Source of the DNA: Halostagnicola kamekurae
GTDB lineage: Archaea > Halobacteriota > Halobacteria > Halobacteriales > Natrialbaceae
Direction of reading: 5' to 3'
NCBI RefSeq assembly: GCF_900116205.1
Contig: NZ_FOZS01000001.1
Location: 806,001 to 870,000 of the forward strand
Length of the DNA: 64,000 bases
Shown here: positions 5,175 through 58,957 of the stretch, piece by piece
Position numbering within the stretch: the stretch's first letter is position 1
How the letters are laid out: every line of letters starts with the position of its first letter
Program-made: the position numbers and the translations under genes
The notes under the pieces: generated by a model
Told to the model about the DNA's origin: nothing
Databases searched by the model: none
Seen by the model: the letters and a program-made list of their open reading frames with translations, nothing else

Positions 5175-5298
5175 GCCGACGTTTCGATCGGTATCGTACG
5201 GCTTCGACTCTTGAAACGTCGGTTCGAAGCGTGGAACGACGGTCGGTCGCGGGGCCCGTTCTCGCGAACCGACGGCTCCGAACGGTGCCGTTGAACGC

Positions 5299-5443: not shown

Positions 5444-5468
5444 CTGCAGTGGATACAATTGCATGGTT

Positions 5469-6641: not shown

Positions 6642-6814
6642 ATCGTGGTATTGTATAGCCAACAGTATGAACCTTCGCCCCGCGTGAGTGGGCTGAAAAC
6701 GCGATGTGGTCGGTTTGACACCGCCCGCCCGGCTCGAGTCGACCTGGGCGGTCCCCTTCGACGGCTCGTCGTACCTTCGAAAGCCCCAAGCCGTCGCTGG
6801 CGAATTGCAGGGCA

Positions 6815-7741: not shown

Positions 7742-7958
7742 TCGGTCGGAGAGTACGCGTCGGCGTCCATCGAACGCCGTCTGTCTGGCTTTTCCTCGGG
7801 AGTCCACCGTCCGTGTCGCCGTCAGACTCAAGAAACGGCTCGCCCGACTCGAGGGATCACGCGGCGCAACTCGAGAAATCGCGCCGCGCACCTATCGACG
7901 CGCGTTCGGCCGGCGCGGGTGGGCCGGATTTTTACCCCTCGCCCGCCTGCCGTCTCAC

Positions 7959-8237
7959 ATGACCGAGCGAACGCGAGCGCACGTCTTCGTCTCCGGCACG
8001 GTACAGGGCGTCTACTATCGGGCGACGACGCGGGACACGGCCCGCGACGCGGGTGTCGACGGCTGGGTGAAGAACTTGGAGGACGGGCGCGTCGAGGCGG
8101 TGTTCGAGGGCCCCGAGGACGCGGTCGAGTCGATGGTCGAGTGGTGTCACGAGGGGAGCCCGGCCGCAGACGTCAGCGACGTACAGGCCGAGTTCGAAGC
8201 CCCCGAGGGTGAAGACGGGTTCGAGATTCGATACTGA
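7959..8237 (+). CDS. Acylphosphatase
   Basis: A small enzyme hydrolysing carboxyl-phosphate bonds such as acetyl phosphate or carbamoyl phosphate. At 92 residues it has normal family length, with the diagnostic signatures GTVQGVYYR (catalytic R21) and GWVKNLEDGRVEAVFEG (catalytic N39). The upstream in-frame extension lacks homology, so ATG 7959 is chosen. The next gene begins 35 nt downstream on the same strand, a possible operon. Confidence 0.95.
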   Translation: MTERTRAHVFVSGTVQGVYYRATTRDTARDAGVDGWVKNLEDGRVEAVFEGPEDAVESMVEWCHEGSPAADVSDVQAEFEAPEGEDGFEIRY

Positions 8238-8272
8238 GCAATTCGAGCGCTGATACTGAGGGTTCGACCATC

Positions 8273-8695
8273 ATGTCCGATCAAGACCCGTCGTCGATCC
8301 GATCTATCGCCGTCGCAACGGAGGACGTCGTCGACGCGGCGATCTACACCCGCGAGAATCCCGGTACCGCCGTCCTCCGGATGACGCCGCCGTTTCACGG
8401 CCGGATGCGCGCCCGACTCCACGTCTTTCACGACGAGGGCGGCCGCGTGAGCGAGGCGATCCACCTCGAGCCGGACGACCTCCTCGCGGATGCGGTACTC
8501 GAGGCCTACCCCTCCTTCGACGACCGCTCCGAGGACGACCGAGACGAGGACCCGGATCGAATCAGGAAACGACGTGAGCGGGCGCTCGAGACCTGGCGCG
8601 AGCGGGCGGCGGACGCGATTCTCGACGCCGTCGTGCTCGGACGGGTCGACGGTATCGACGGCGGCCACCGCGTCGACGTGAAACGCCTCGGCTGA
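8273..8695 (+). CDS. Conserved haloarchaeal hypothetical protein
   Basis: A 140-residue acidic protein I cannot assign to a named family. Visible features are an N-terminal SIAVATEDVVDAAIYT block, a TPPFHGRMRARLHV strand region, and a highly charged helix of alternating Asp/Glu/Arg around residues 85-115, then GHRVDVKRLG at the C-terminus. Codon use fits the chromosome. It lies 35 nt after the acylphosphatase gene and may share its transcript. No membrane segments or cysteines. Confidence 0.7.
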   Translation: MSDQDPSSIRSIAVATEDVVDAAIYTRENPGTAVLRMTPPFHGRMRARLHVFHDEGGRVSEAIHLEPDDLLADAVLEAYPSFDDRSEDDRDEDPDRIRKRRERALETWRERAADAILDAVVLGRVDGIDGGHRVDVKRLG

Positions 8696-8877
8696 TCTCG
8701 ACCGTCGCGACTCAGAGCGGAAGTCGCGGGCTGTCGAACGACCGCACTCGAGCGCACTGCCCACCGCACCGGTTTGAGACGGTCGAACGATGCCGAGCGG
8801 GGCCCCGATTCAGTCCCGCACTTTCACTTTCACCGCGGACGGATCGGTTTCACGTACTATCGCTCCAACTGAGAGGT

Positions 8878-9072
8878 ATGAGTCAACTCGTAGAGCGCTT
8901 CGACGACGAACGGACCGATCGAGAACCCGTCGCCGACGCCGATCGCCCGCGGATCGACGTCAGCGATCTGCAGGCCAAAGGCGTCGAGGAGTTCGTCCGA
9001 ACGAACGTCGGCACGGACCGCGTCTCGCTCGAGCACCGCGGCTCGCACACCTACCTCCTTCTCGAGGAGTGA
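8878..9072 (+). CDS. Small conserved haloarchaeal protein
   Basis: A 64-residue acidic protein, unrecognised. It has an N-terminal Asp/Glu/Arg-rich half and a C-terminal half patterned as helix-strand-strand (GVEEFVRTNVG, RVSLEHRGSHTYLLLEE). ATG 8878 follows the typical haloarchaeal spacing after an AT-poor region. Its amino-acid bias and the 74-nt gap to the next plus-strand gene support real coding. Confidence 0.65.
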   Translation: MSQLVERFDDERTDREPVADADRPRIDVSDLQAKGVEEFVRTNVGTDRVSLEHRGSHTYLLLEE

Positions 9073-9146
9073 GTCTGCCCCCGTGATGGGGGATTCGACG
9101 CGCTCGTGGAGAAAGGCACTTCCGAACGCATCCCGTCCGCTCGAGC

Positions 9147-9680
9147 GTGAGCACCGACACGCCGAGCGACCGCGGAGCCGGGCCGCGCCGAATCGAGGTC
9201 TACGAGGGGCGCGAGGCCGTCGTCGAGTTCGACCCCGACCTCACGTTCGAGTGCGTCGACGACTGCACCTGGTGTTGCCATCACGGCGTCTTGCTATACG
9301 ATCGGGATCTGATCGAACTCGCCGCCCGCGCGAACCTCGCGGAGACGACCACCGACTTCCGCGGCGAGAAGTTCGTCACTCGAGAGCCCAAAGACCGCGA
9401 GGCACACGTCGACGAGGACGGCAACGCCTGTGCGTTCCTGCGCGAGGACGGGCTCTGCTCGCTACATCTCGAGGAGGACTGGAAACCGACCCGGTGTTCG
9501 GTGTTTCCACTCGGCGTCTGGCTCGAAGAGGGCGACCTGCACGTCGATATCCGGGACTCGGCACACGACCACTGCGACGGGCTGAACGTCAGCGATCGCC
9601 GCGTCATCGAGAACCTCGAGGCGTTCCTCCCGGAAGTGCTGTGGGACCTCGAGAACCCGGATTCCGAACGAGTCCTGTGA
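9147..9680 (+). CDS. YkgJ family cysteine-cluster protein
   Basis: A 177-residue protein of the YkgJ-type Zn/Fe-chelating cluster family (also called CxxCxxCC). The cluster CVDDCTWCC is at residues about 31-39, with further cysteines at CAFL, CSLH, CSVF and DHC; the pattern CxxCxxCC...C...C...C is typical. The RCSVFPLGVW segment is the family's second signature. A metal cluster, probably Fe-S or Zn, is expected; no substrate is known. Start is a GTG at 9147, placing the conserved core at its usual distance. Alone in its transcription unit by spacing. Confidence 0.85.
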   Translation: MSTDTPSDRGAGPRRIEVYEGREAVVEFDPDLTFECVDDCTWCCHHGVLLYDRDLIELAARANLAETTTDFRGEKFVTREPKDREAHVDEDGNACAFLREDGLCSLHLEEDWKPTRCSVFPLGVWLEEGDLHVDIRDSAHDHCDGLNVSDRRVIENLEAFLPEVLWDLENPDSERVL

Positions 9681-31777: not shown

Positions 31778-32148
31778 TGCCCGTTGTGGTGGGGCGGCAC
31801 CTAAACGGGTTTCTGTCCGTCGTCGTCGTGCGACGCCACGGCGTACCACAGTACTCCTACAGCGACTCGGAAACGCCGTCATTTTATGACTGATATTTTA
31901 CCATAATGGGTTATGCAGAAGAACTAATTAGTATTCCGTCACATATCTGCGTGCAACATGTTCGGTTTCGAAACCGATGGTGTGAGAGTGGCGATCGTTC
32001 GGAAAACAGTGAAAAAGGCTCTCTCGACGACGTTTTGTCGATCTCGATCGGGGGACGAAGACGCGAGGAGAAACGCGGTTTCACGACTCGGTCGGCGACG
32101 GCGAGTTCGTGTCAGTCTGCCGGCGAACTAAGCCGGTATGGGGGGACT
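31778..32148. other. Upstream region of the SipW/TasA locus
   Basis: About 370 bases. TATTTTACCATAATGG near 31892-31907 resembles a promoter and faces the first HTH gene. An ATG-led frame from 31906 runs into that gene but its first 81 residues are not haloarchaeal-like. GGGGGA just before ATG 32149 may be a ribosome-binding site. Confidence 0.4.
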
Positions 32149-32760
32149 ATGAGCACTCTGAAACAGCAACAGCCGGAGCGAACCGACACGCAGTATCGTG
32201 GGGGAGAGAACACTCGGATCGGTCGAGAAACCGCCTATCAGGCACTGAGCAACAAACGACGCCGGTTCATCGTCCACTATCTGCTACGAGAGCGAACGCC
32301 GGTTTCACTTCGCACGCTCTCGAAACAGGTGGCCGCCTGGGAGAACGCGGTACCACCGTCCCAGGTCACGTCCAAACAGCGAAAGCGCGCTTACACGGCG
32401 CTGCACCAGGCGCATCTGCCGAAACTCGACAAGATGGGGATCATCGAGTACGACACTCGAGAGATGGTCGCGCACCCGACGGCGAAACTCGAGACGCTGC
32501 AGGTCTACATCGACGTCGTTCCCGAAGACGACGTCCCCTGGAGCGTCTTCTACATCGGCATCGCGTTCGTGTTCGGTGCGAGTGCCACCCTCGGGTGGCT
32601 CGGACTCCCGCCGTTCGGGCTCTTTCCTGGGCACCTCTGGGCGCTGATCGGTTCCCTGACCGTCGCCGCGATGGGTGCCGTTCACACTTACCGCGATCGG
32701 CGACACGAGTTCGCGATCGAGGCGCCGCCGCCGGAGGTCGAACGGTCGGACTCTCGCTGA
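32149..32760 (+). CDS. Membrane-anchored DUF7344 HTH regulator, copy 1
   Basis: A 203-residue protein: N-terminal DUF7344 winged-helix domain (about 25-125; ALSNKRRRFIVHYL, VTSKQRKRAYTALHQAHLPKLDKMG), then two hydrophobic helices (about 145-165 and 168-188) and a short Pro/Glu tail. It resembles a membrane-bound transcription regulator. It is a close paralogue of the gene at 33117 (a 50-nt stretch is identical), so a tandem duplication. Its place upstream of the SipW-dependent proteins suggests it controls them. Confidence 0.82.
   Translation: MSTLKQQQPERTDTQYRGGENTRIGRETAYQALSNKRRRFIVHYLLRERTPVSLRTLSKQVAAWENAVPPSQVTSKQRKRAYTALHQAHLPKLDKMGIIEYDTREMVAHPTAKLETLQVYIDVVPEDDVPWSVFYIGIAFVFGASATLGWLGLPPFGLFPGHLWALIGSLTVAAMGAVHTYRDRRHEFAIEAPPPEVERSDSR
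32407..32456 (+). repeat. 50-nt exact direct repeat, copy 1
   Basis: Identical over 50 nt to 33369-33418. It encodes the conserved HTH recognition region of both DUF7344 paralogues. The silent sites match as well, pointing to recent duplication or gene conversion. Confidence 0.9.
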
Positions 32761-32793
32761 AGAGTTCGTCTGATCGATCGATCTATTTTCCCG

Positions 32794-32898
32794 CAGTATA
32801 CGACGCTTACGGACAGTATAGAGTGGCTGTAGCCTGACCGACGCTGTGTGTCGCCGTCGTAAACACTCACTGTCGCTAATATATTGTGTATACAAAAG
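32794..32898. promoter_or_regulatory. GTATAC-centred sites between the two HTH genes
   Basis: CAGTATACGAC (32794-32804), a second AGTATA copy at 32815-32820 giving an inverted TATAC/GTATA pair, and GTGTATACAAAAG (32886-32898). The same elements recur before the tasA-like gene at 33906-33916 and 33958-33970. The AT-rich GTGTATACAAAAG may be a TATA/BRE box; the others look like operator half-sites. Confidence 0.5.
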
Positions 32899-33116
32899 TA
32901 TAGCACATCCCTTGTCGCAGCCAGAATGGCAGCAGACGGCACTACTAACGGACGCGTCACGTCGAACCGGCACGCGGACGCGAGACTTGCGTGCGAGAAC
33001 GGACCGACACACACGGGCGAACCGCCTCGGGGGCGGTCGGACTATGAAGGTGCGTCACCTATCGCTCGAGTGAGTAGAACCGATCGGTCGCAGATCGCAA
33101 TCTGGAGGTGAGTGGC

Positions 33117-33722
33117 GTGAGTCTCACAGGCGAACGTCGGCGGGATTCCCAGCAGCTGGCTCGAGAAGAACGAGCACGAATCGACCGCGAGGTCGCGTAC
33201 CAAGCCCTGAGCAATCGGCGTCGGCGCTTTACGGTTCACTACCTGATGCAACAGTGGGAGCCGATTTCCCTCCGGACGCTGTCCGAACAGATCGCGGCGT
33301 GGGAAAACGGCGTCTCGCGCGCACAGGTTACGTCGAAACAGCGAAAACGAACCTACACGGCGCTTCATCAGGCGCATCTGCCGAAACTCGACAAGATGGG
33401 GATCATCGAGTACGACACCCACGAAATGGTCGCCCACCCCACGGAGAAACTCGGAACGCTTCGGATCTACATGGACGTCGTCCCCGAGGACGAGATTCCC
33501 TGGAGCGTCTTTTACACAGGAATCGCGATCAGCTTCGGAGCGGGTTCCGCTCTCGGGTGGCTCGGACTCCTGCCGTTCGCCGCGATATCGGGAGACGTCT
33601 GGGCGATACTCACGGCGGCGATAATCGCCGTAATCGGCGCAGTCAACATCTACCGCAACCGGCAGAACCGCCTCGGCATGGAGGGACCGCCGCCGGAGGT
33701 CGCCCATATCGAATCGTCCTGA
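33117..33722 (+). CDS. Membrane-anchored DUF7344 HTH regulator, copy 2
   Basis: A 201-residue paralogue of the gene at 32149: HTH region RRRRFTVHYLMQQWEP and the near-identical VTSKQRKRTYTALHQAHLPKLDKMG, two C-terminal hydrophobic helices (GIAISFGAGSALGWLGLL and ILTAAIIAVIGAV). GTG 33117 is chosen because GGAGGTG at 33104-33110 sits 6 nt upstream as a Shine-Dalgarno; the earlier GTG at 33108 lies inside that motif. Two tandem paralogues immediately before the secreted-protein genes make co-regulation likely. Confidence 0.8.
   Translation: MSLTGERRRDSQQLAREERARIDREVAYQALSNRRRRFTVHYLMQQWEPISLRTLSEQIAAWENGVSRAQVTSKQRKRTYTALHQAHLPKLDKMGIIEYDTHEMVAHPTEKLGTLRIYMDVVPEDEIPWSVFYTGIAISFGAGSALGWLGLLPFAAISGDVWAILTAAIIAVIGAVNIYRNRQNRLGMEGPPPEVAHIESS
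33369..33418 (+). repeat. 50-nt exact direct repeat, copy 2
   Basis: Second copy of the 50-nt repeat at 32407-32456, inside the second DUF7344 gene. Confidence 0.9.
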
Positions 33723-33897
33723 CGACCTGGACGCTACGGCCTGTCGATTCTCTTGCCTTCGCTCGAGAGCAGCTTGTGCTGTGGGTCTGAGCGATTTTTG
33801 TGCGTGGATTCTTCGGATCGACCTGAGAAGTCCATGCCGTTCGATCGCGGCTATCGGTGTTCGGCTTACTCCATCCAATTCGGTGTCGTAGAGGCTC

Positions 33898-33970
33898 TAT
33901 ACGGCCAGTATACGACCTCTTCCCGGCCGTACAGGCTCTTTGTTCAGGTCACAGCACGTGTATACAAAAG
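33898..33970. promoter_or_regulatory. Candidate operator and promoter of the tasA-like gene
   Basis: TATAC-GGCCA-GTATA (33898-33912) is a perfect 5-bp dyad with a 5-nt centre; it overlaps CAGTATACGAC (33906-33916). GTGTATACAAAAG at 33958-33970 is probably the TATA element, placing transcription start near 33991 and leaving a leader of about 30 nt. The same two motifs occur before the second HTH gene, so the regulators may bind both. Confidence 0.55.
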
Positions 33971-33991
33971 GCCGTCTCACCCCTCGTCGCT

Positions 33992-34009
33992 ACTGCGTGA
34001 AAACGCAGT
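33992..34009 (+). promoter_or_regulatory. Leader hairpin with GAAA tetraloop before the tasA-like gene
   Basis: ACTGCGT, loop GAAA, ACGCAGT: a perfect 7-bp stem closed by a GNRA tetraloop, ending 11 nt before ATG 34021. It would occupy nearly the whole leader of a transcript started at about 33991 and could control translation or mRNA stability. Confidence 0.55.
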
Positions 34010-34020
34010 TGAGAGACAAA

Positions 34021-34562
34021 TGAAGCAGAACATCGAACTGACGCGACGCAAAGTTCTTGCAAGTACGGCACTGGTCGGCGCGGCCGGCGCGACCGCCGGC
34101 GCGGGCACCTGGGCGTTCTTCAGCGACGAAGAAACGGCCGAAGACAACACGATCTCCGCGGGTACGATCGATCTCGACGTGAACGCGGGCGACGGCTTCT
34201 CCTACACCTGGGGCAACGCCGCGCCGGGCGACGACTACGACGGCGTCCAGCTCCCGTTCAGTAACACCGGCTCGATCGACGCGGAAGAACTCGTGATCGA
34301 GACCGAGATTGGCGGCGACACCGACCTCGCGGAGTACATCGACCTCGAGTTCGAGTACTCGAACGGTGATGCTCCAGAGTCGCAGACGCTCGCCGAATTC
34401 GCCGACGGCGAAGTTACGCTGGGCGGGATCGACGCCGGTGGGAGCGCCACCCTGACGATCGATGCGGCGTTCGCCAGCGACGCTGGCAACGACCTGCAAG
34501 GCGCGTCGATCGAGATCGATCACACGTTCACGCTCCGTCAGGTCGCCGGACAGGACGAGTAA
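34021..34562 (+). CDS. SipW-dependent secreted protein (TasA/archaeal bundling-pilin-like), copy 1
   Basis: A 180-residue exported protein. The N-terminus combines a twin-arginine-like motif (TRRKVLAS), a hydrophobic core rich in Ala/Gly, and the SipW-type motif AFFSDEETAEDNTISAGTI found after the cleavage site of TasA/camelysin family proteins. The mature part is an acidic beta-rich domain (SNTGSIDAEELVIETEI, GGIDAGGSATLTID). TasA forms bacterial amyloid-like fibres and its Pyrobaculum relatives form bundling pili; a fibre role is inferred. It is followed 24 nt later by the second copy. Confidence 0.82.
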
Positions 34563-34586
34563 TCGCCCGCCACCGTTTTTCACACC

Positions 34587-35333
34587 ATGACAGACAACTC
34601 ACGCACGATATTGACGCGGCGACGTGCGCTGGCGGGCGTCGCGGGGATCGGACTCGCCTCCGCCGGCGCGGGCGCGGGAACGCTCGCGTACTTCAGCGAT
34701 AGCGAGCGCTCGAGCGGGAACGCGATCGAAGCGGGAACGATGGAGCTGTCGGTATCGAACGGCTACACGTACGAGTACTCGTTCAGAGACGTCGCGCCCG
34801 GCGACGAACGCGCGCTGTTGCAGGTCGCCGACGGCGAGTGGGCCGACCGAGACCTCGAGTTCGACGGCGACGCGGTCAACTCTGGGAGCGTCGACGCCGA
34901 CTGTCTCGCCGTCTACATCGAACACGAAACGACTCCCGGCGAGGGCAGCGACGCCTCGAGCATGGAAGAACACCTCGAGATAGAGACGCTCAACTGGGAA
35001 GGGTCCGAGTACGTCTCCGACTACGAGGTGCTCTCGGAGAGCGACGCGAACCCGCCCAGCGACTTCGATTTCACAGTCGACGGCGAGGATTTCTTCGACG
35101 TCTTCGACGAAGGCGATTCGATGACCGCCGCCGATATCGCAGAACGGGAGCTTCGATTCCATCCCGCACCGCGAACGAACGGCGATCCGGCCAACGACGG
35201 ACGGACGTTCGGGTACACGTTCAAGATCAGCGAGGAGATGGGCAACGAGTATCAGGGGGCGGAGCTGACCACGGACATTCACTTCGCGCTCCTCCAGGAC
35301 GAGAGCCAGACGTTCGACGGCACGGTATCGTAA
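34587..35333 (+). CDS. SipW-dependent secreted protein, copy 2
   Basis: A 248-residue relative of the preceding protein: LTRRRALAG twin-arginine-like motif, Gly/Ala hydrophobic stretch, then LAYFSDSERSSGNAIEAGTM. The mature domain is larger, with acidic beta strands and the LRFHPAPRTNGDPANDGRTFGYTF block. It lies between copy 1 (24 nt gap) and the signal peptidase gene (7 nt gap), so the genes are one operon. The two products could form a heteropolymer or one may cap the other (inference). Confidence 0.82.
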   Translation: MTDNSRTILTRRRALAGVAGIGLASAGAGAGTLAYFSDSERSSGNAIEAGTMELSVSNGYTYEYSFRDVAPGDERALLQVADGEWADRDLEFDGDAVNSGSVDADCLAVYIEHETTPGEGSDASSMEEHLEIETLNWEGSEYVSDYEVLSESDANPPSDFDFTVDGEDFFDVFDEGDSMTAADIAERELRFHPAPRTNGDPANDGRTFGYTFKISEEMGNEYQGAELTTDIHFALLQDESQTFDGTVS

Positions 35334-35340
35334 CACCACG

Positions 35341-35886
35341 ATGAGTTCGGGAATCAGCAAACGGCGGGCGCTACGCGTCGCGGGAGCGGCGTTTCTGGTC
35401 GCGCTGGTGGTTCCCTTTCTCGTCTTCGCGGTACCGGCCGTCGTCGGTGCCGACGCGAGCTACGTCGTCCTCTCCGATAGCATGAGCCCGACCATCGAGG
35501 CGGGCGACGTCGTGATCGTACAGGATCGCGATCCGGCGAGGATCGAAACGGGAGACGTGCTTACGTTCGACGTCGCCGATCCCGACGAGTACGGTGCCGA
35601 CGGTGGCACGAGCATCGTGACACACCGGGTCGTCGACGTCGAGCAAACCGACGGCGGTCACGAATTCGTGACGCAGGGAGACGCCAACAACGCGCCGGAC
35701 GGCTCCCCAGTCGAGGAAGAGCAGATCGTCGGGGTCGTCGCCTTCTCGATTCCCTACATCGGGCGCGTCATTTCGTTTGCGGGCACGCGAGCCGGCATCG
35801 CGCTCCTGATCGTGGTTCCGTGCGCGCTCCTGGTCGTCAACGAGCTGTACGAACTCCTCTTCGAGGACGAACGAGCGGACCGATGA
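35341..35886 (+). CDS. SipW-like signal peptidase I (archaeal/ER type)
   Basis: A 181-residue type I signal peptidase: an N-terminal hydrophobic helix, the catalytic serine S47 in SDSMSPT, and the histidine H95 in VTHRV that replaces the bacterial lysine, as in SipW and ER-type enzymes, with the GDANNAPD box (D114, D120); a C-terminal hydrophobic helix follows (LLIVVPCALLVV). It should remove the signal peptides of the neighbouring YFSD-motif proteins. It overlaps the next gene by 4 nt (ATGA). Confidence 0.9.
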   Translation: MSSGISKRRALRVAGAAFLVALVVPFLVFAVPAVVGADASYVVLSDSMSPTIEAGDVVIVQDRDPARIETGDVLTFDVADPDEYGADGGTSIVTHRVVDVEQTDGGHEFVTQGDANNAPDGSPVEEEQIVGVVAFSIPYIGRVISFAGTRAGIALLIVVPCALLVVNELYELLFEDERADR

Positions 35887-36959
35887 CCGGGTCGATCGGG
35901 ACGGTATCGAAGCTCGCCGTCCTCTCGATCACCGTACTGGTGCTCGTGGGTTCGACCGGTTTTTCGGGCGCGTACTTCAGCGATCAGGCCTCGAGCGACG
36001 GTGGCCGGATCTCGGCTGCAGACCCGAAGCCGACGCGAGGCGACCTGAAGTTCACCCCGAAATCGCTTTCGACGACGAATCAGGGGACGACGACGATCCA
36101 TCTTGAGCAGCCGGCGGGTTCGACGATCGACCCCGAGTCGGCCGTCGCGACGGTCGACGGCCGGTCCGTGGACGCACCCGTACGGACCTGTAACCCGCAG
36201 AAGTGCCTGTTCGAACCGACGGCACAGGCCGTCATCGACGCCGGCGGGGCGGGCGAACCGACCCTCGAGGTGACCGCGACGCTCGAGAACGGGTCCGAAC
36301 TCGAGGCGTCGACGACCGTTCGGATCTTCGAACCGGGCGGGAGAAACCCCGGGCTCGGTCCGTCGCGCGATCAGGGCGACTCGGACGAGCAAGGCGTCGA
36401 CCCGGAGACTGAAACGGTCGAGAGTGCTATACCGGGTCCTGACGAGGGCGAATCGAGTCCCGATTCGATCGAGCGGTCGAGTAACGGGTCGAACGAATCC
36501 GCGAGCGAACGGCCGGGTGTAGAAACCGGGACCGGCGGTTCGACCGCCAGCGAAAACGAGTCGGGGTGGTCAGGCACCGATCCCGAAAACGACACCGCAG
36601 ACGGGGAGTCGGGGGCCGAATCGACGCCGAACGCGACTTCGGCGGACGAGCGCACAGCCGATCCAACCGGGATTGAGGAGACCAAAAGCGGCGAACCCGC
36701 CACCAGTTCGTCTGATCGTGACGAGACTGCGTCGGACGAGGAGTCGTTCGGCACGTCTGACACCAACGGCGTCGGAACTGACAGCGACGCCGGAACTGAC
36801 AGCGCCACCAAAGTCGACGCCGAAGTCGACGAAACCGAAACCGACAGCGAAGTCGACGACACCGACGACATCGACGACGCGCGATTGGACGCCGAAACGA
36901 CGGCCACGACCGAAGCCGAGACCGACGAGCGGTCGTCGCGACGCAGCGACGGGGACTGA
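35883..36959 (+). CDS. SipW-motif secreted protein with long acidic Ser/Thr/Asp/Glu tail
   Basis: A 358-residue exported protein. The signal is a single hydrophobic helix ending in GAYFSDQASSDGG, the same YFSD motif as its neighbours but without a twin-arginine pair. Residues about 45-140 form a compact beta-type domain with a disulfide-capable pair (CNPQKC); residues about 150-358 are low-complexity, extremely rich in Ser, Thr, Asp, Glu and Gly, probably disordered and heavily charged or glycosylated. No C-terminal membrane anchor or LPxTG-type signal. It ends the operon; a matrix or anchoring partner of the fibres is inferred. Confidence 0.75.
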   Translation: MTGSIGTVSKLAVLSITVLVLVGSTGFSGAYFSDQASSDGGRISAADPKPTRGDLKFTPKSLSTTNQGTTTIHLEQPAGSTIDPESAVATVDGRSVDAPVRTCNPQKCLFEPTAQAVIDAGGAGEPTLEVTATLENGSELEASTTVRIFEPGGRNPGLGPSRDQGDSDEQGVDPETETVESAIPGPDEGESSPDSIERSSNGSNESASERPGVETGTGGSTASENESGWSGTDPENDTADGESGAESTPNATSADERTADPTGIEETKSGEPATSSSDRDETASDEESFGTSDTNGVGTDSDAGTDSATKVDAEVDETETDSEVDDTDDIDDARLDAETTATTEAETDERSSRRSDGD

Positions 36960-37195
36960 CACGGCGGCAGCAAATACGTCAATAGGAACATTATTGTAGA
37001 TTGAACTTCGTCGTTGTAGTGGCTATTGATAATGTGTAACACGGTCCGGTCGACGACCAGCTAGAGGTGGGGCGGACACGGGGTGGATCGCGGGGGGTTC
37101 ACCGTGAGAGCGGGCGTGTACTCGGTCGGTTCGCTGATTCCACCGACCGCTCTGAGTATCGACGACCGTCGTTCAATAGTCGGCACACAACACCT

Positions 37196-38251
37196 ATGAC
37201 TACCAGATCGACGACTGACGGGAGCGACGTGACGATTCGAACGGCGACACCGGCCGATGGGGCGGCGATCGGCGACCTCTTCGCGAACAGTCCCGACGAG
37301 GGCGCGGTCAGCTTCGCGCCGCGGTTTTCCCACGACCCGTACCGGGCGTACGCTGGACTCAGGCCGGAATCGACCGGCTTCGTGGCCGAAACGACCGCGG
37401 ACCAAATCGTCGGGGTCGGGTTCGTCTCGCTCACCGAAGCTCGGTTCGACGGCGAACTGCGACCGACCGCGTTGTTGAACGCGCTCGCGGTCCACCCCGA
37501 CTATCGCGGTCGGGGACTGGCGAAACGGCTCGTCGAACGCCGGCTCGAGCACGCTCGAACACGCCTCGGCGAGGACTGCGTCGCGTTCGCGAACATCCAG
37601 CACGGAAACGACCCCTCGCGCGCGGTCGCGTCGTCGTGGGCCGATTCGCTCGCGCGAGAGTACGTCATGCACCCCGCAGAGCCGCTCGGTTCGCCAGCCG
37701 AATCGCTCGAGTACGACGTTCACGACGCCGGTCCCGACGAGCGGTCGGCCGCAGTCGATCGATCGAACGAGTTCTACGCTGACACCGATCTTTACCGGCC
37801 GTACTCGCCGGCTGAACTTGGCGACCGGCTCGCGGAGTCGCCGATAGACGAGCCGCTCCACCGCTATCTCGTCGCGACGGTAAACGGCGAGGTAGTGGCC
37901 GGCGTCTTCGCTTCCGAGATGCACAAGCTGATGCGACTCGTCCTCGAGTCGCTGCCGCCCGCGCTCGAAAACGCGGAGTCCCTTCCGAGCGCGATTCCCG
38001 AAAGCGAGGAGCTTCGAATGACGATGCTTTCGGACCTCTGGTACGCGTCCGGCCACGAAGCCGCGGCTCGAGCGATATGGCAAACCGTACGGGCCGACTC
38101 CGAGGGAGCGAATCGAATCATGCTGAACTACGACCCAGTAGGGCGGCTGGCGGACGCCCTCGCACTGGCTCCCGACGACGGCGCGATGGAACTGTCGGTT
38201 GCGGTGAAAGGCGCGGACATCCAGAGCGACGAGATCGCGCCGGTCTTCTAG
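37196..38251 (+). CDS. GNAT family acetyltransferase with extended C-terminus
   Basis: A 351-residue protein. The N-terminal 160 residues form a GNAT fold with the acetyl-CoA motif HPDYRGRGLAKRLVERRLEHAR; the remainder is a helical region (DRSNEFYADTDLY, HRYLVATVNGEVVAGVF, HKLMRLVLESLPPALENAESLP). Substrate unknown. ATG 37196 is the first good start after the intergenic gap of about 236 bp behind the SipW operon. The C-terminal extension makes it about twice the length of a minimal GNAT, suggesting a second degenerate GNAT domain. Confidence 0.8.
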   Translation: MTTRSTTDGSDVTIRTATPADGAAIGDLFANSPDEGAVSFAPRFSHDPYRAYAGLRPESTGFVAETTADQIVGVGFVSLTEARFDGELRPTALLNALAVHPDYRGRGLAKRLVERRLEHARTRLGEDCVAFANIQHGNDPSRAVASSWADSLAREYVMHPAEPLGSPAESLEYDVHDAGPDERSAAVDRSNEFYADTDLYRPYSPAELGDRLAESPIDEPLHRYLVATVNGEVVAGVFASEMHKLMRLVLESLPPALENAESLPSAIPESEELRMTMLSDLWYASGHEAAARAIWQTVRADSEGANRIMLNYDPVGRLADALALAPDDGAMELSVAVKGADIQSDEIAPVF

Positions 38252-51894: not shown

Positions 51895-52318
51895 GGCAGA
51901 GCGAATCATCGCCTTGCCGGAGCGTACCTGTGAAGTCGTGAGCGACTGGATTACCCACATTCGTCCCGATGTAACGGACGACAACGGACGAGAGCCGCTC
52001 ATCACTACCGAGCAGGGGCGTGTCAGTCAGAGCAACATCCGTGCCCTCGTGTATCACATCACCCGACCTTGCTACTACGGGGAGTCCTGCTGTTGTGACG
52101 AGCAGTATCCCTACTCCTACGCCAGCAAGTGCGAGCAGTCACGGAGTCCCCACTGCTTGCGGAAGGGGAGCCTCACCCATCTCTTGAAGAACGACGTGCC
52201 GAAGCAGGTCGTCTCTGACAGGGCAGACGTCTCGTCCGACGTGTTGGACAAGCACTACAACAAGATGACCGAGGAGGAGAAGATGGAGCAACGGAGGGAG
52301 TACCTCGACTTGATGTAA
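51893..52318 (+). pseudogene. C-terminal remnant of a tyrosine-recombinase integrase
   Basis: In frame from about 51893 the sequence reads as the C-terminal half of a haloarchaeal phage-type integrase: an RIIALPERTCEVVSDWI segment, EPLITTEQGRVSQSNIRALVYHITRPC, then HCLRKG (catalytic H-x-x-R), a later His/Trp-position region and the nucleophile Y in DKHYNK. The N-terminal half with the first catalytic Arg is missing and no good start exists; a TTG at 51914 is only a frame start. So the element cannot excise on its own. The remnant lies at the end of the element far from the tRNA. Confidence 0.78.
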
Positions 52319-52624
52319 CCGCCCGATTGTCATAGTATTATATGAGAGGGTGAAGGGACTGGTAGACCACCCCTCTTTGGATTACAGACAACAGATATAA
52401 CACAGTGGTGTTTAAGAGTGTATGAGTGTCCACACTCGTCTAGAAAAGTCACCTAATAACACCTCTGTGTACAGAAAGCCGGAATAGAATTGGTCGCCAT
52501 CTTTAAGTACGATACTAACCAATAGTAGTGTAAGGAAGTCAGAAACGTATCGCTCGATGAATAGCCACTTCTCCTGCTGAGGGTGCCTGTTCAGCCGGTG
52601 GTCTGAGCAGTCGGTCTGGCAGTC
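52319..52624. other. AT-rich region with GAGTGT repeats, candidate origin
   Basis: Low-GC gap before the replication-type genes. GAGTGT occurs twice with 2 nt between and is followed, 2 nt later, by its inverse ACACTC (52416-52437), the last two forming a perfect dyad at 52424-52437. Several AT-rich runs surround it. The position just upstream of a primase-like gene makes it a candidate replication origin. Confidence 0.5.
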
Positions 52625-53274
52625 GTGGCGAACAGCAACGACTCTGGCAATCAGGAGGACAGGGAAGCGTCCGAGAAGGACGTGGATACAGACACAGCGG
52701 AAGCCGTAACCGATGGAGGGCAACCGCTCGCCTTGGAGGAACGACTCGATACTGGCTCGAAGTCGTGGGAGGAGGTGCAGAAAGACAAGCATCAGTACGA
52801 CCATCAGCCGAGTTTCCCACCGTGTTCGACGGCTCGCACGACCCTCTACGCACGAGAGGCAGACGACGACGAGGAGGAACGGTACGAGGTGTTCTTCCTC
52901 CTGCAACACGGACGACAGCACCCTGCGGAGAGACGTGCCAACGGCTACAGCGAGGGATGGGATGGCCAGAAGGTACGACAGGAAGACGTCTGGAAGTTCT
53001 GTCGAGCGCACATCGTCCTCTCGCAAGCCGGTGTCGCTGCCCCAGTCGAGGAGTGGGCAGTCCAGAAGGTGATGGAAGAAGACCTGCGAGGATTCAGTCG
53101 GTACCACGAGGGAATCGATGGAGCCGCTCTCGGATTCGCCACTCTCTGCAAGTACGACGACGTCGAGATGGCGAAGGACTCCTATTGGTGGATGAGGTCG
53201 AGGCGATGCTCGGTGTAGATGGCGAGAAGTTGGTGGAGTACGTCTGGCGGAAGTACGGAGGTGACGTGCGATGA
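52625..53274 (+). pseudogene. Element gene of unknown function with a -1 frameshift
   Basis: From GTG 52625 an acidic protein of about 197 residues is open to 53218 (SWEEVQKDKHQYDHQ, WDGQKVRQEDVWKFCRAHIVLSQAGVAAPVEEWAVQKVMEEDL). About 53186 the natural continuation moves to the -1 frame (LVDEVEAMLGVDGEKLVEYVWRKYGGDVR), which ends in TGA overlapping the next gene's ATG (ATGA, 53271-53274). That overlap argues the shifted frame is the true end, so one base was lost, or a -1 frameshift is used. Function unknown; it is probably a replication-initiation partner of the next gene. Confidence 0.7.
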
Positions 53275-54211
53275 GTCGATTCGAGTTCACCTCCCAGCAG
53301 GACAACGAGGATAACACGGATGGTGGTATTCCGAGTCGCCTGAGGGAACACGACCAGTGGCTCGTAACACAGGACAAGAAGCCAGTCGCTCCGTCCGAAG
53401 GGTGGCAGGAATCGGTGAATCATCTCTCCTTCACCGAGGTGCAGGACAAGGCCGAGCAACTCGGTGGAGAAGTGGCCTTCTGCTTCACCGAGAGCGGTCC
53501 TTTCGTCGGATTCGACCTCGATGTCGTCAAGGCAAACGGCGAGTTCACTGAGGAGGCACGCACCATCGTGCGACGACTCGACTCTTACACCGAGGTATCG
53601 AGTTCGGGGACAGGGCTACACGTCATCGCAGAAGGCAACCGCTCGGACGACCACAAGCACCGAGGCGACTTATCGGAGGCAGGGCATCTCGAAGTGTACG
53701 ACGAGAGCCGGTATTTCGTACTTACCGGAGATGTGTACGATGGCTTCACATCGGTCGAGGGCAGGCCCACAGTCGTCCCAGAGGTGCAGGACGGCTATCT
53801 CCCAAAGCGCCAGAAGTTCTCCTTCACGAGCCAGCAGAAGCCTGTGAGCGAACAGGAGTTCGATGGAGGGCAAACGGATGCAACACCCGAACAGGTACGT
53901 CGGACGATTCAAGCCTACGTCAAGACCGACAGCAAGGATGTAGACGAAGAGGTACTCCGCCTGTGCGAGGGAGCGACGAGGGGCGAAAGTCTCCATCAGA
54001 GGCAGATATGGCCTTCGTGAAGCAACTATACTACTGGTGTCGAGGTGACCAGCAGTTGATGGATGATTGCTTCCGAGCCTCTGACCGGATGCGTCAGAAG
54101 TGGGACGAGGTACACTCCTCTGATAGAGTCACGTATGGGGAGATGACCATACGAAGGGTCTGTCGAACCAACAGCGACACCTTCGGAGGGAGGTACGTGG
54201 AGAGAAGGTAG
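53271..54211 (+). pseudogene. Primase-polymerase-like gene (NrS-1 polymerase type) with a -1 frameshift
   Basis: The N-terminal part (SRLREHDQWLVTQD, EVAFCFTESGPFVGFDLDVV, TYTEVSSSGTGLHVIAEG, GHLEVYDESRYFVLTGDVYDG) is the bifunctional primase-polymerase fold with the metal-binding GFDLDVV-type motif. The C-terminal helix bundle of NrS-1-type polymerases (SEADMAFVKQLYYWCRGDQQ, FRASDRMRQKWDEVHSS, TYGEMTIRRVCR) follows, but in the -1 frame: the first frame stops at 54020 and the second runs to 54211. The switch is near the GGGG run at 53980-53983, where one G is probably missing. No helicase domain follows. Confidence 0.75.
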
Positions 54212-54344
54212 GTGTTCGAGAATGTTGGTATCCGTCAATCCCTCTGTGTTATCCCGCTGGTCATCAATCGAATTACACGGGGTGTTTCCCATATACAGTA
54301 TCTCTCGGTGAATCCCTCCACTACATCATATGACAATCGGAGGG

Positions 54345-55088
54345 TTACTCTTGAACTGCGGTGAGACTGTAAATATCGTTCTCCAAACACACATCTTCAC
54401 GCCCTCTGTCTGCTATCTCCTTGGATTTCACTGAATACGACAAGTCGTTTAGCAATTCTTCGACTTTCGAACTAGGGGAATCTCTTATCCCGTGACTTTC
54501 GACCAAGATTACCCTCGGTTGAATTGTCAGATTCTCCAATATCTCAATTTCGGCTCCCTCACAATCTAATTCCAGAACGTCACACTCAGGAAGTTGCTCT
54601 GGAGAAACACGAGATGCATTTTTTGCTTCCCCACGAAGACTAATTTCCGGCCCGACAATACCGTGTACAACATCAACTCTATCGGAGAGATTATGTTTCC
54701 TGATGGTTTCTTGAACGTGGTTAATTTGTCTCTCTGACCCCTCATATACCGTCACCCTCCCAGAATTTCCTACCTTCTGTGCGGCTTTAACTGCTGTAAC
54801 ACCCCATCCACCTCCTACAATAACTACATTATCCCCCTCTTCCGTGAACTCCTCAATTCCCGAAACCAGTCCAGATTCGTAATCGGGTCTATTTTGATTG
54901 CATCTCCACGGAGCAATCGAGTCAAAGTATTTTCCCGTGTTCACGTCGACAGAATTATATTGAACATAAGGTTTTGGCAACAACAACGGGCCAACATAAT
55001 TGTCGATGAGATATGGAACTCCTCTTTTGAGTAGTTCGAAGGGGCCTTCTCTTCTAAGAATACGGATTGCTTTGATGAGAGTGTTCAT
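54345..55088 (-). CDS. FkbM-type SAM-dependent methyltransferase, AT-rich cargo gene
   Basis: A 247-residue protein with a class I SAM fold: VVIVGGGWGVTAVKAA (motif I), an acidic strand-end VYEGSE, and CDVLELDCEGAEIEILENL (FkbM-type motif). The N-terminus (LIKAIRILRREGPFELLKRGVPYLIDNYVGP) is family-like for haloarchaeal glycan-linked methyltransferases. Base composition is strikingly AT-rich with many AAT/ATT/TTA codons, unlike the flanks: recent transfer from a low-GC source is likely. Start 55088 is chosen; an ATG at 55112 adds eight residues. Substrate unknown. Confidence 0.78.
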   Translation of the reverse strand: MNTLIKAIRILRREGPFELLKRGVPYLIDNYVGPLLLPKPYVQYNSVDVNTGKYFDSIAPWRCNQNRPDYESGLVSGIEEFTEEGDNVVIVGGGWGVTAVKAAQKVGNSGRVTVYEGSERQINHVQETIRKHNLSDRVDVVHGIVGPEISLRGEAKNASRVSPEQLPECDVLELDCEGAEIEILENLTIQPRVILVESHGIRDSPSSKVEELLNDLSYSVKSKEIADRGREDVCLENDIYSLTAVQE

Positions 55089-55479
55089 TCTGTTTAATAT
55101 CCCGCACCCCACTATGTCAATGCTGGGTAGTGGTTCAGGTGGTTTCCGAAATTATGCCTCATTGGTGAGGGCTCTCATAGACCACCGAGCGCATATGTCT
55201 GGTTGCAGAGCAGGGATATTTTTGGAGTCGGAGTGTAATCCTTTTATCATATCGAGTTCAACGCGCTATATAAAAATACGCCGCTCAAGGCTTGTGCACC
55301 CGACTGACAGCAGTACGCGCTATCGGGCCGAAAGTTTCTAGGTTCCCCGATACGTTCGGCTATACGCGAACGCACGACGGCGGTCACCCGAGTCAGTTGA
55401 CCTGTTCAACCCAAACACGTCGAGATGGAATCGCACGATAGCGCGGCTCCGCTCGGCTCTGAATCGACCCGGAAGAAAG
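55089..55479. other. AT-rich region between cargo gene and tRNA-Tyr
   Basis: About 390 bases without a supported gene. TATATAAAAATA near 55268 is an AT-rich promoter-like run; on the minus strand it would lie 180 nt before the methyltransferase start. No integrase N-terminal fragment is found here, where a split integrase would leave one. Confidence 0.35.
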
Positions 55480-55553
55480 TCCGCCCTCCCCGATTTGAAC
55501 GGGGGGCAAGTCGATCTACAGTCGACTGCTCTACCAGTCTGAGCTAAGGGCGG
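55480..55553 (-). tRNA. tRNA-Tyr (GUA)
   Basis: 74-nt cloverleaf read on the minus strand. Acceptor stem CCGCCCT/AGGGCGG with the C1-G72 pair diagnostic of archaeal tRNA-Tyr, D-arm GCTC/GAGC with loop AGACTGGTA, anticodon arm GTCGA-CTGTAGA-TCGAC (anticodon GTA), variable TTGCC, T-arm CCCCG-TTCAAAT-CGGGG, discriminator A. No intron and no encoded CCA. Its 3' end faces the integrated element. Confidence 0.97.
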
Positions 55554-55676
55554 GCACTCGAACATAGCAGACGAGACGGACATAAGGGTTATCATTCGAT
55601 GGCTGTGTGACAGCCGTCCGACAAAGGCAAATATTCATAAGGACGGGGCTGAAATACGAATCCAATCGAGACACTC

Positions 55677-56276
55677 ATGAGCAAGATCACGTTCCGTGCC
55701 GACGACGAGCTCATCGACGAACTCGAGACGTTCGACGCGTCGAAAAGCGAGGTGATGCGAGACGCGCTTCGAACGTATCTCGAGGGCGGTTCGTCGGCTC
55801 AGTCCCAGGAGACGATCACCCAGGCTGAGCCAGCACGGGACGGGTCGGGCCACGAGAGCATTGACGAGTTCGTTCGCGAGCGGGTCGACGAACTCCTCGA
55901 GGACCGACTCGCAGAGCGGAGACAGCGAGAGCCTCAGGACGTAAACGTCACGGTGGCCCTCGAGAAGGCTCAGCAGACGCGTAAGACACAGGAGGCGAAC
56001 GACGCCGTTGGAAATTCTGTCACACAACCACACCAATCTCGAAGTCCGGGTCGGACCGAACCGAACTCGACCGGACAACAGTGTGGCCAGTGCGGCGAAT
56101 CCATCTCGGGAGACCACGTCTACTGCCCGAACTGCGGCGAGAAAGCGTCTCACCGGCTGTTCTGTGAGTGTGGCGACGAACTGCGATCGGACTGGGGATT
56201 CTGTCCCGGCTGCGGGCGTCGGACGGCCGCGGCGGACGTTCTCGATTCGAACGGCCAGCACTCGAGAAATTCGTAA
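55677..56276 (+). CDS. cdrL: CdrL: ribbon-helix-helix protein with C-terminal zinc ribbons
   Basis: A 199-residue regulator. Residues 1-45 are a ribbon-helix-helix domain (MSKITFRADDELIDELETFDASKSEVMRDALRTYL); a charged coiled segment follows (FVRERVDELLEDRLAERR), and the C-terminal third carries two zinc ribbons (CGQCG, CPNCG, CECGD, CPGCG). In haloarchaea CdrL is encoded just upstream of cdrS-ftsZ2 and regulates that cell-division operon; assignment is by architecture and position. Start ATG 55677, about 120 nt downstream of tRNA-Tyr. Confidence 0.85.
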   Translation: MSKITFRADDELIDELETFDASKSEVMRDALRTYLEGGSSAQSQETITQAEPARDGSGHESIDEFVRERVDELLEDRLAERRQREPQDVNVTVALEKAQQTRKTQEANDAVGNSVTQPHQSRSPGRTEPNSTGQQCGQCGESISGDHVYCPNCGEKASHRLFCECGDELRSDWGFCPGCGRRTAAADVLDSNGQHSRNS

Positions 56277-56337
56277 TACGGGAAAATTTCTGTCCGACAA
56301 AACCTTTATTACCTATCGGTAGCATTGCTATATGTGC

Positions 56338-56439
56338 GTAAGACGACCGTCTTACACGAGAGTCAAAATGCGTGAAAAACCCGTTTCACGCCACTCTCCC
56401 GTGTAAGACAAAGCGTCTAACAGGGGCGCGCCGTCTTAC
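56338..56439. promoter_or_regulatory. Large dyad upstream of cdrS-ftsZ2
   Basis: A nested inverted-repeat region. GTAAGACG/CGTCTTAC is a palindrome at 56338-56355. GTCTTACACGAGAGT (56349-56363) is complementary to ACTCTCCCGTGTAAGAC (56393-56409) apart from a 2-nt bulge, and inside them GCGTGAAA (56370-56377) pairs with TTTCACGC (56384-56391). More half-sites, GTAAGAC/GTCTaAC (56403-56421) and GTCTTAC (56433-56439), follow before ATG 56457. Likely operator array for an RHH regulator, possibly CdrS/CdrL. Confidence 0.75.
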
Positions 56440-56456
56440 CCAGAGGGAATACAACA

Positions 56457-56636
56457 ATGGAGCGTGTGACACTGCGAATCCCGGAACAGCAGATCGACGA
56501 GGTCGAACAGCTGGTCGACTCGGGCGAGTTTCCGAACCGGAGCGAGGCGATCCGGTCGGCCGTTCGAGAGATGATCAACGAACAACAGAACGGTCGTCGC
56601 GACCAGACGAGTAAACGCGGCTGGGCGAAGGTGTAA
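56457..56636 (+). CDS. cdrS: CdrS: short ribbon-helix-helix cell-division regulator
   Basis: A 59-residue RHH protein: beta strand [19 protein letters not shown] and the two helices [21 protein letters not shown], then a basic/polar tail ([14 protein letters not shown]). CdrS in haloarchaea is encoded directly before ftsZ2 and controls its expression and cell division. It is 2 nt before the ftsZ2 ATG, an operon, and sits behind the large dyad at 56338-56439. Confidence 0.92.
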
Positions 56637-56638
56637 CG

Positions 56639-57820
56639 ATGCAGGATATCGTACAAGACGCCCTCGATAACGCCGAAGCGGAAGCTCGTCAGATGGACGA
56701 ATCGATGGACGACGACGAGTTCGGCGATCCGCGGATCGTGATCGTCGGCTGTGGCGGTGCTGGAAACAATACGATCAATCGGCTGTATAACATCGGCGTC
56801 GACGGTGCGGACACCGTCGCGATCAACACCGACAAGCAGCATCTGAAGATGATCGAAGCCGACACGAAGATCCTCGTCGGCAAATCCCTTACCAACGGCC
56901 TCGGCGCCGGCGGTGACCCGTCGATGGGCGAACGAGCGACCGAAATGGCCCAGAGCACGATCAAAGAGGTTCTCGGTGACGCAGACCTCGTCTTCGTGAC
57001 CGCCGGCATGGGCGGTGGCACCGGCACGGGTGCCGCCCCCGTCGTCTCGAAGATCGCGAAAGATCAGGGCGCTATCGTCGTTGGCATGGTTTCGACGCCG
57101 TTCAACGTCGAGCGCGCTCGGACGGTCAAAGCCGAGGAAGGCCTCGAGAAACTTCGAGAACAGGCCGACTCGATCATCGTCCTCGACAACAACCGGCTCC
57201 TCGATTACGTCCCGAACCTCCCGATTGGCAAGGCCTTCTCGGTGATGGACCAGATTATCGCCGAAACGGTCAAAGGGATTTCGGAGACGATCACCCAGCC
57301 GAGCCTGATCAATTTGGACTACGCGGACATGTCCACGATCATGAATCAGGGCGGCGTCGCGGTGATGCTCGTCGGCGAGACCCAGGACAAGAACAAGACA
57401 CAGGAAGTCGTCAGCGACGCGATGAACCACCCGCTGCTCGACGTCGACTATCGGGGTGCCTCCGGCGGCCTCGTTCACATCACCGGTGGACCGGACCTCA
57501 CGCTGAAAGAGGCCGAAGGCATCGCGGACAACATCACCGAGCGACTCGAGGCGAGCGCGAACGTCATCTGGGGCGCTCGTATCCAGGAGAACTACAAGGG
57601 TAAGGTTCGCGTCATGGCCATCATGACCGGCGTCCAGAGCGCGCAGGTCCTCGGGCCGACGACCCAAAAACAGGCCGATAAGTCACGCCAGAGTATCGAA
57701 GGGCTCAACGACGCCGATTTCGATGCGAGTAACAACGTCGAAGCGTCTCACCCCGGCACCCAGAGTGACGGCGGCAGAGACAAACTCGAGCAGAAAAACG
57801 GCGTCGACGTTATTCGGTAA
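56639..57820 (+). CDS. ftsZ2: Cell-division GTPase FtsZ2
   Basis: The tubulin-like division GTPase that forms the constriction ring together with FtsZ1. Residues 33-45 hold GxGxxG-type [16 protein letters not shown], residues 123-131 the tubulin signature [12 protein letters not shown], and the T7 loop [11 protein letters not shown] is intact. The N-terminal 30 acidic residues and the C-terminal [14 protein letters not shown] region are haloarchaeal. FtsZ2 rather than FtsZ1 is inferred from linkage to cdrS. Full length at 393 residues. Confidence 0.93.
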
Positions 57821-57991
57821 TCTTCCCTGGCGGATCCCGTGTTTCGAACGGACAGTCGATCCGTTCTTGTCGTGGCGCTCTCGACCTCGAGAACGGATTC
57901 GCGGTTACTTCGTTTTTCAACTACGCAGCAAGAGTCTGGAAACTCGACCTCGAGGGGACGGTACTAAACGTCCGTCCGTTCCCGATCGAAC

Positions 57992-58957
57992 TCAGGCGAG
58001 CGCGTCTAACAGCGAGCACTTCCGACACCGCTCTCGAGTCGTCGTCGATCCGCACTCGACGCACTCGCGGAGGTCGGCTCCCGCCTCGTCGTCGCCGTGG
58101 TATCGCTCCGCGACGAGACCGGCGAGTTCCTCGTACCCCGAGAGGATCGAGTGGCGAGTCCCCGGGTGATTCTCCTCGAGATCGTACAGGAGTCGCTGTA
58201 TCTCCCCGCGATAGGCCTCGCTCGAGTGAGGACACTCGGTGATGTGTGCGGGGAGGTCTCGGACGTGCGCGTAGAGGGCCACCTCCTTCTCGGGCACGTC
58301 ACGGAGGGGCTTTGCTCGCGGGACGAACTCGGATTGGTCCTCGCGATCGGAAATAGGACCGAGACTGGCGTCGAAGTGCTTCGCGATCTGTGCGACGTCG
58401 CCCTCGAGGAAGTTCATCAGCGCCGTCTGGGCCTCGTCGTCGAGGTTGTGGCCGGTCAGCATGAGATCCGCACCGAGTTCGTCGGCGTATTTCTCGAGGA
58501 GGTCCCGTCGGAAGACGCCGCAGTAGGCACAGGCGGCCATGTCCTCGGGATCGTCCTCGACGACGTCGTCCATCTCGACGCCGAACTCCTCGGCGTAGCT
58601 GACGACTTCGTGGCGGATCTCGAGGTCGTCGGCCAACTCGACGCAGGCGTCGACGGACTTGTCGCGATAGCCCTCGATCCCTTCGTGAATCGTCAGCCCG
58701 ACCAGCTCGATGCGGGGGTCCTCCGCGAATGTTTCGTGGAGGATCTGCGTGAGGACGACGCTGTCTTTCCCGCCGGAGAGGCCGATAACCCACGTTTGCG
58801 GGTCCTCGGGCATCGCGTCGGGAGAAACGAGGTCGTCCCGGCGGACCCGTCGCCGGACGCGTTTCTCGACCGATTCGCGAAAGTGTGACTCACAGAGGTG
58901 TGCGCCCGAGTACGCGGCGTGCATGATCGACGGCTCCTCGCACCGGTTACACTCCAT
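57992..58957 (-). CDS. ncsA: NcsA/TtuA-type tRNA 2-thiolation protein
   Basis: Thiolates U34 of tRNAs (or U54 in the TtuA subgroup). The 321-residue protein has an N-terminal zinc finger (C3, C6, C22, H25), the ATP-binding PP-loop SGGKDS (61-66), the redox pair C143/C146 (CAYC) and the GHNLDDEAQTALMNFLEGD helix, then a C-terminal zinc ribbon (CVECGSTTTRERCRKC). It should act with a SAMP-type sulfur carrier. Full length for TIGR00269. Monocistronic. Confidence 0.9.
   Translation of the reverse strand: MECNRCEEPSIMHAAYSGAHLCESHFRESVEKRVRRRVRRDDLVSPDAMPEDPQTWVIGLSGGKDSVVLTQILHETFAEDPRIELVGLTIHEGIEGYRDKSVDACVELADDLEIRHEVVSYAEEFGVEMDDVVEDDPEDMAACAYCGVFRRDLLEKYADELGADLMLTGHNLDDEAQTALMNFLEGDVAQIAKHFDASLGPISDREDQSEFVPRAKPLRDVPEKEVALYAHVRDLPAHITECPHSSEAYRGEIQRLLYDLEENHPGTRHSILSGYEELAGLVAERYHGDDEAGADLRECVECGSTTTRERCRKCSLLDALA

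Follow-up and report, generated by a model that had tools for sequence, protein, structure and literature searches.

A candidate TasA-type surface-fibre module with Tat-type subunit signals and putative membrane-anchored regulators in the haloarchaeon Halostagnicola kamekurae

Analysis of a 64,000-nt stretch of the 4.1-Mb genome of Halostagnicola kamekurae (hereafter the window, to which coordinates refer) identified a cluster of six genes on one strand at positions 32149-36959, in the order D1-D2-T1-T2-S-Z, that can be read jointly as a surface-fibre module of the TasA type, a reading to which we assign a probability of roughly 0.6. T1 and T2 would be the fibre subunits, S the signal peptidase that cleaves them, Z the starter or anchor of the fibre, and D1 and D2 the regulators of the locus. 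A first-pass annotation had described six same-strand genes of these kinds from the sequence, and our analysis bore this out, including the gaps of 24, 7 and -4 nt (T1-T2, T2-S and S-Z), which were exact; the sole correction was to the start of T1, which lies at 34020 and not at 34021 (Table 1).

T1 and T2 were both assigned to the TasA/camelysin family. Against PF12389 (gathering score 22.5), T1 scored 47.5 bits (E 2.4e-12) and T2 31.9 bits (E 1.5e-7), and they were the only proteins of the whole genome to pass the cut-off of 19 bits for TIGR04088, the SipW-dependent signal domain (31.7 bits for T1; 33.8 bits, E 2.6e-8, for T2). In each, a twin arginine stands before the hydrophobic stretch (LTRRKVL in T1, LTRRRAL in T2), where TRRK or TRRR precedes GAGTxA[FY]FSD, in agreement with the earlier description of two twin-arginine secreted proteins with a YFSD-type motif. 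Profile searches by sequence matched T1 to TasA (5of1/8aur, E 2.2e-12) and to AbpX (9sj2, E 7e-6), and T2 was included in the family alignments (A5 and A6). Mature T1 was modelled from 34 relatives, Bacillus subtilis TasA not among them, with a predicted local distance difference test score (pLDDT) of 78, a predicted template modelling score (pTM) of 0.69 and low confidence for the first 17 residues. The best VIA matches of this model, clearly above the rest, were the TasA monomer 5of1 (Z score 10.5, root mean square deviation 2.3, 118 aligned) and the TasA fibre 8aur (Z score 10.0); the next, the Pyrobaculum bundling pilus 7ueg, had a Z score of 7.7, below the level of a stand-alone clear match. 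The disordered N-terminus of the modelled T1 is compatible with polymerisation by donor strand.

Alternatively, T1, T2 and Z may be single secreted surface proteins that do not polymerise, or proteases, as would be suggested by the Pfam name of PF12389 (Peptidase_M73, camelysin metallo-endopeptidase). Many T relatives are 450-700 aa long with inserts, in one case a von Willebrand A-like stretch (L071), and could be adhesins. However, the HExxH zinc motif is absent from the T1 and T2 sequences, fold and profile of T1 both match TasA first, and short tandem T copies beside S together with a Z partner make up the TasA layout; we consider this explanation unlikely. The L071 protein itself (L071:4315-5808) is TasA-like, and its von Willebrand A-like stretch (LVLDRSGSMSS) suggests that domains have been inserted into some fibre subunits or adhesins.

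The S gene product was matched to the archaeal/endoplasmic reticulum-type signal peptidase I family TIGR02228 with 110.1 bits (E 9e-32, cut-off 51.85), and its Ser47 and His95 were invariant across 30 relatives, which bore out the earlier call of a Ser/His signal peptidase. The S family profile also matched human SEC11C (E 2.8e-20), and against the SipW equivalog of Bacillus (NF046067) S reached 92.9 bits, short of the cut-off of 190. Co-occurrence of S and T genes was surveyed at strict thresholds in 121 genomes of the host family, where T-type genes were found in 42 and SipW in 39; the three genomes with T but no SipW (G003, G031 and G059) are only 53-77% complete. Among the 111 genomes that are at least 90% complete, 36 had both S and T, 75 had neither and none had a single one, a perfect co-occurrence that supports the earlier proposal of a self-contained module. 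Since the S/T pair is all-or-none and the junction of S and Z is conserved, the gene set goes beyond chance.

This S-Z junction was assessed by a strict test, in which a Z-type protein was encoded by 24 of 40 genes after S versus 9 of 538 after other genes (p 1e-24), and by a loose one, in which 59 of 64 loci had a Z-type gene at the post-S position. The post-S genes mostly overlap the peptidase gene in an ATGA and their products, 93-1640 aa in length for the Z type, usually lack a twin arginine and possess a [LVY]F[ST]D-type site followed by an acidic or Ser/Thr-rich tail. Z of the window conforms to this description and to the earlier one of a third YFSD protein lacking a Tat pair, with a long acidic tail (24% Asp plus Glu after residue 50). 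Of 35 loci, 33 had a Z protein whose 16 residues past the site resembled the donor-strand segment of T more closely than shuffled versions of those residues did (mean z 1.8 over the 35), and in the window the likeness of the N-terminal segment of Z to this region reached z 2.96. In Bacillus, TapA has been proposed as the giver of the first donor strand from such a likeness of its start (PMC9674648, PMC10151520), its gene overlaps that of the peptidase and the protein is poorly conserved (PMC10151520). The TapA features found in Z comprise the SipW-type site, a donor-strand-like start, the start/stop overlap with the peptidase gene and a disordered tail; by these features and its position, Z appears TapA-like in anatomy.

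Membership of Z in a named domain family was rejected, as Z had no match in Pfam or NCBIfam (TIGR04088 also gave no hit) and the best E value in a profile search of the PDB was 0.88. A class-wide genome search with Z found only weak matches outside the window. Z may be no more than a further substrate of the peptidase, or a T paralog that has degenerated, for instance an uncleaved, membrane-anchored acidic coat protein, with no initiating role. The low complexity of the tail, the wide range of lengths, a likeness to T that spans only ~20 residues, and a ~100-aa domain clearly matched in close relatives only all favour such a reading. Yet the place of Z is constant and the 4-nt overlap with the peptidase gene is mostly kept across genera; TapA varies too, and biofilm requires only the N-terminal residues of TapA (PMC10151520). 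On balance an ordinary substrate or degenerate paralog seems rather doubtful, and a TapA-like Z is preferred. At one locus (L085; G078:C29) the Z position after SipW is occupied by a protein of 1640 aa in which CARDB-like domains are repeated.

The export signals of the two kinds of substrate differ. When the search profile was restricted to the mature part, a twin arginine was present upstream of the cleavage region in 126 of 126 haloarchaeal T proteins versus 8 of 60 from outside the haloarchaea. A first count, for which the profile had spanned the signal as well (149 of 150 versus 1 of 19), was circular, as that profile had been seeded on the twin arginine, and the mature-part profile removed the circularity. 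With T proteins of Tat (twin-arginine translocation) type and Z proteins mostly non-Tat, sequence patterns across the family support the suggestion that two export routes converge on one peptidase. Use of the Tat pathway by the T proteins is suggested by the type of their signal; T1 and T2 are therefore probably folded before export.

D1 and D2 matched PF24035 (DUF7344) with E values of 1.6e-28 and 9.9e-29 (99 and 100 bits versus a gathering score of 27.8) and share 62% identity, so that the paralogous DUF7344 helix-turn-helix (HTH) proteins of the first-pass annotation were confirmed; the two membrane helices it had claimed fit the C-terminal hydrophobic part, in which Kyte-Doolittle analysis gave one clear helix for each protein. 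The genome holds 27 DUF7344 matches, of which most have no predicted membrane helix and no link to a peptidase. To measure linkage, 40 regions were mapped within the family. Of these, 39 surround a SipW-type peptidase and the remaining one is a second locus of the H. kamekurae genome; seven were lengthened before DUF7344 neighbours were counted. A DUF7344 gene stood beside the cluster in 39 of 39 SipW loci, and the linkage is not chance, because only ~10% of 16-kb stretches would be expected to hold such a gene at an abundance of 27 in 4.1 Mb; chance linkage was rejected on this ground. Outside the family the link of DUF7344 with SipW was common, not universal.

Three layouts were distinguished: DUF7344 divergent from a T array with S and Z at its end; DUF7344 immediately upstream of S, in many cases overlapping it by 4 nt, with a T gene nearby; and the D-D-T-T-S-Z order of the window, common to two species of the same genus. 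In a midpoint-rooted tree with several branches unsettled, most of the linked DUF7344 proteins belonged to two lineages, of which one, with 26 rows, formed a fully supported clade, and D1 and D2 grouped with copies from D-S operons, apart from the unlinked copies of their own genome. Phylogeny and SipW co-occurrence, which the first-pass annotation had named as a check, both place DUF7344 lineages at these loci. A literature search of partial coverage found no paper on DUF7344 and none on haloarchaeal TasA.

Control of the operon by D1 and D2 is further suggested by the element GTGTATACAAAAG, which occurs exactly twice in the 4.1-Mb genome when up to one mismatch is allowed, once before D2 and once before T1. 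Both copies lie within blocks conserved in three species, alongside copies of CAGTATACGAC, and the block at T1 is identical in 25 of 30 columns; the region upstream of D1 is without the element. Together with the linkage and the DUF7344 lineages, this promoter element common to D2 and T1 supports the earlier idea of dedicated membrane regulators, and D1 and D2 are probably membrane-anchored HTH proteins that control the operon. Instead, they may partner the peptidase or the export machinery in the membrane and have a leftover HTH-like fold, or they may regulate other genes. D1 and D2 are membrane proteins, and at ~10 loci a DUF7344 gene adjoins or runs into that of the peptidase (in many cases at -4 nt), as the gene of a subunit might. 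Against this, the many DUF7344 copies without predicted membrane helices or linked peptidases fit a regulator family, most other loci have D and the first T gene in divergent orientation, a usual layout for regulators, and D2 and T1 share the private element; a peptidase partner or a regulator of other genes is hence improbable in comparison with putative regulators of the fibre genes.

Combining these results, we propose that T1 and T2 are probable fibre subunits whose N-terminal segment (A[FY]FSD...NxIxAGT) would be held at the membrane by the signal helix. S would cut before this segment, and the freed donor strand would insert into the next subunit. Z, which would be made by translation coupled to that of S, has a non-Tat signal, the same kind of cleavage site, a donor-strand-like start and, as judged by sequence, no TasA jelly roll; its probable role is that of TapA in Bacillus, to start or anchor the fibre. 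Control of the operon would lie with D1 and D2, and D2 and T1 share the private element.

Several observations weigh against this proposal. T1 scored only 29.6 bits against NF046066, the equivalog of Bacillus biofilm TasA with a cut-off of 450, because of which it is regarded as a distant TasA relative and not as an orthologous TasA. The first-pass annotation had made its proposal depend beforehand on TasA-like jelly-roll folds in the secreted proteins; T1, the subunit that was modelled, passed this test, and the domain model of Z was poor (pLDDT 65), its fold matches being tied at Z scores of 6.5 or less, also with regard to the central V-set Ig fold of TapA. The likeness between the starts of Z and T could stem from recognition by the peptidase instead of donor-strand mimicry, and a few Z proteins (L088, L089, L100 and L104) do have a twin arginine near their start. 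Among the loci examined outside the genus, GTGTATACAAAAG was not seen before T genes. Lastly, the family loci share ancestry and the counts drawn from them are not independent.

The donor-strand mechanism of TasA and TapA has been described for Bacillus (PMC9674648, PMC10151520). Like the tapA-sipW-tasA operon of B. subtilis, the H. kamekurae cluster combines a TasA-fold subunit, a dedicated Ser/His-type peptidase, SipW-type sites and a second substrate that overlaps the peptidase gene at start/stop and has a flexible start and a disordered tail. In contrast to that operon, the haloarchaeal subunits are Tat-type, there are two subunit genes, the partner follows the peptidase, DUF7344 membrane proteins stand in place of SinR, and sequence identity is low. 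The camelysins of Bacillus cereus have Sec-type signals, and to our knowledge their sipW-calY1-calY2 locus is without DUF7344 and without an acidic partner. As in the present cluster, a single peptidase there accompanies a pair of PF12389 proteins (PMC10151520). A further likeness is to the Pyrobaculum AbpA bundling pili and AbpX, which are archaeal donor-strand fibres, through the T1 profile match to AbpX and the T1 fold match to 7ueg given above; those proteins, however, are hyperthermophile proteins and identity is low. We know of no Tat-type gene cluster with DUF7344 for AbpA or AbpX.

A second peptidase cluster was observed in the same genome (L102, G000:C4:176000-192000, 4496-9282; ~180-185 kb of C4), with genes for a DUF5305 protein, a Sec11-like peptidase of 504 aa and a membrane protein of the DUF7344 family, together with a pair of small proteins that have twin-arginine signals, SGAF motifs and weak likeness to DUF1102. 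It shares with the window the combination of peptidase, DUF7344 and small twin-arginine proteins and differs in lacking PF12389 members, in peptidase class and in having SGAF instead of YFSD. The pairing of peptidase and DUF7344 may be a wider theme.

Table 1. Genes and control-region features of the cluster (window coordinates).
Feature	Position	Strand	Description
D1	32149-32760	+	203 aa; DUF7344 winged-HTH-like domain and C-terminal membrane helices; probable membrane-bound regulator
CAGTATACGAC near D2 element	32794-32804	+	Accompanies the GTGTATACAAAAG copy at 32886
GTGTATACAAAAG element before D2	32886-32898	+	231 nt before D2 start (position 32886); conserved in G067 and G054
D2	33117-33722	+	201 aa; second DUF7344 membrane protein; GTG start
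CTATAC	33897-33902	+	With the T1 GTGTATACAAAAG element
CAGTATACGAC before T1	33906-33916	+	With the T1 GTGTATACAAAAG element
GTGTATACAAAAG element before T1	33958-33970	+	62 nt before T1 start; probable core promoter
CTGCGTGAAAACGCAG hairpin (leader)	33993-34008	+	Just before T1 start codon; weak on its own
T1	34020-34562	+	180 aa; TasA/camelysin-family secreted protein; Tat-type signal, SipW-type site AFFSD
T2	34587-35333	+	248 aa; second TasA-family protein; Tat-type signal, AYFSD site
S	35341-35886	+	181 aa; SipW/Sec11-type Ser/His signal peptidase
Z	35883-36959	+	358 aa; non-Tat signal, SipW-type site AYFSD, ~100-aa all-beta region, acidic disordered tail

The cluster is flanked by genes for an Obg/YGR210-like GTPase (minus strand) and a GNAT acetyltransferase. 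The GTG start of D2 corresponds to the position of an ATG in the relative G067, and a small open frame at 32926-33111 (stop TGA at 33109-33111), whose end overlaps the D2 start region and which is open up to the homologous stop in G067, may be a leader frame of D2. The CTGCGTGAAAACGCAG hairpin had fold z values of -1.95, -2.75 and -1.23 in three species. A palindrome, CGGTTTCGAAACCG, lies at 31963-31976, ~185 nt before D1, in a block identical in 24 of 30 columns in three species, and is imperfect in G054. An Rfam scan of 31800-37400 gave no match, and a sigma-70 promoter scan was set aside as uninformative, the host being an archaeon. Elsewhere in the window, 52001-58000 has a GC content of 0.51-0.59 versus ~0.65 in the rest and is possibly acquired DNA.

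In summary, the cluster might represent a haloarchaeal rework of the TasA/SipW system for Tat, in which subunits are exported folded, a dedicated peptidase licenses their donor-strand assembly by cutting the membrane-held signal, a separately exported acidic TapA-like Z whose gene is coupled to that of the peptidase starts the fibre, and locus-dedicated membrane HTH proteins control it; we advance this extended view tentatively, with the odds somewhat against it. TasA relatives in archaea are already known (PMC10151520 and references therein), and in the literature that was covered, which is partial, a Tat-routed haloarchaeal form with a DUF7344 link and a conserved Z was not found described. 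If the proposal is true, haloarchaea would possess TasA-type matrix fibres with a clear genetic unit, and it would raise the mechanistic question of whether a donor-strand fibre subunit can leave the cell folded via Tat. It would also set one branch of DUF7344, a large and uncharacterised family, in a functional context for the first time, and likewise Z, a conserved protein that is coupled to the peptidase and belongs to no named family.

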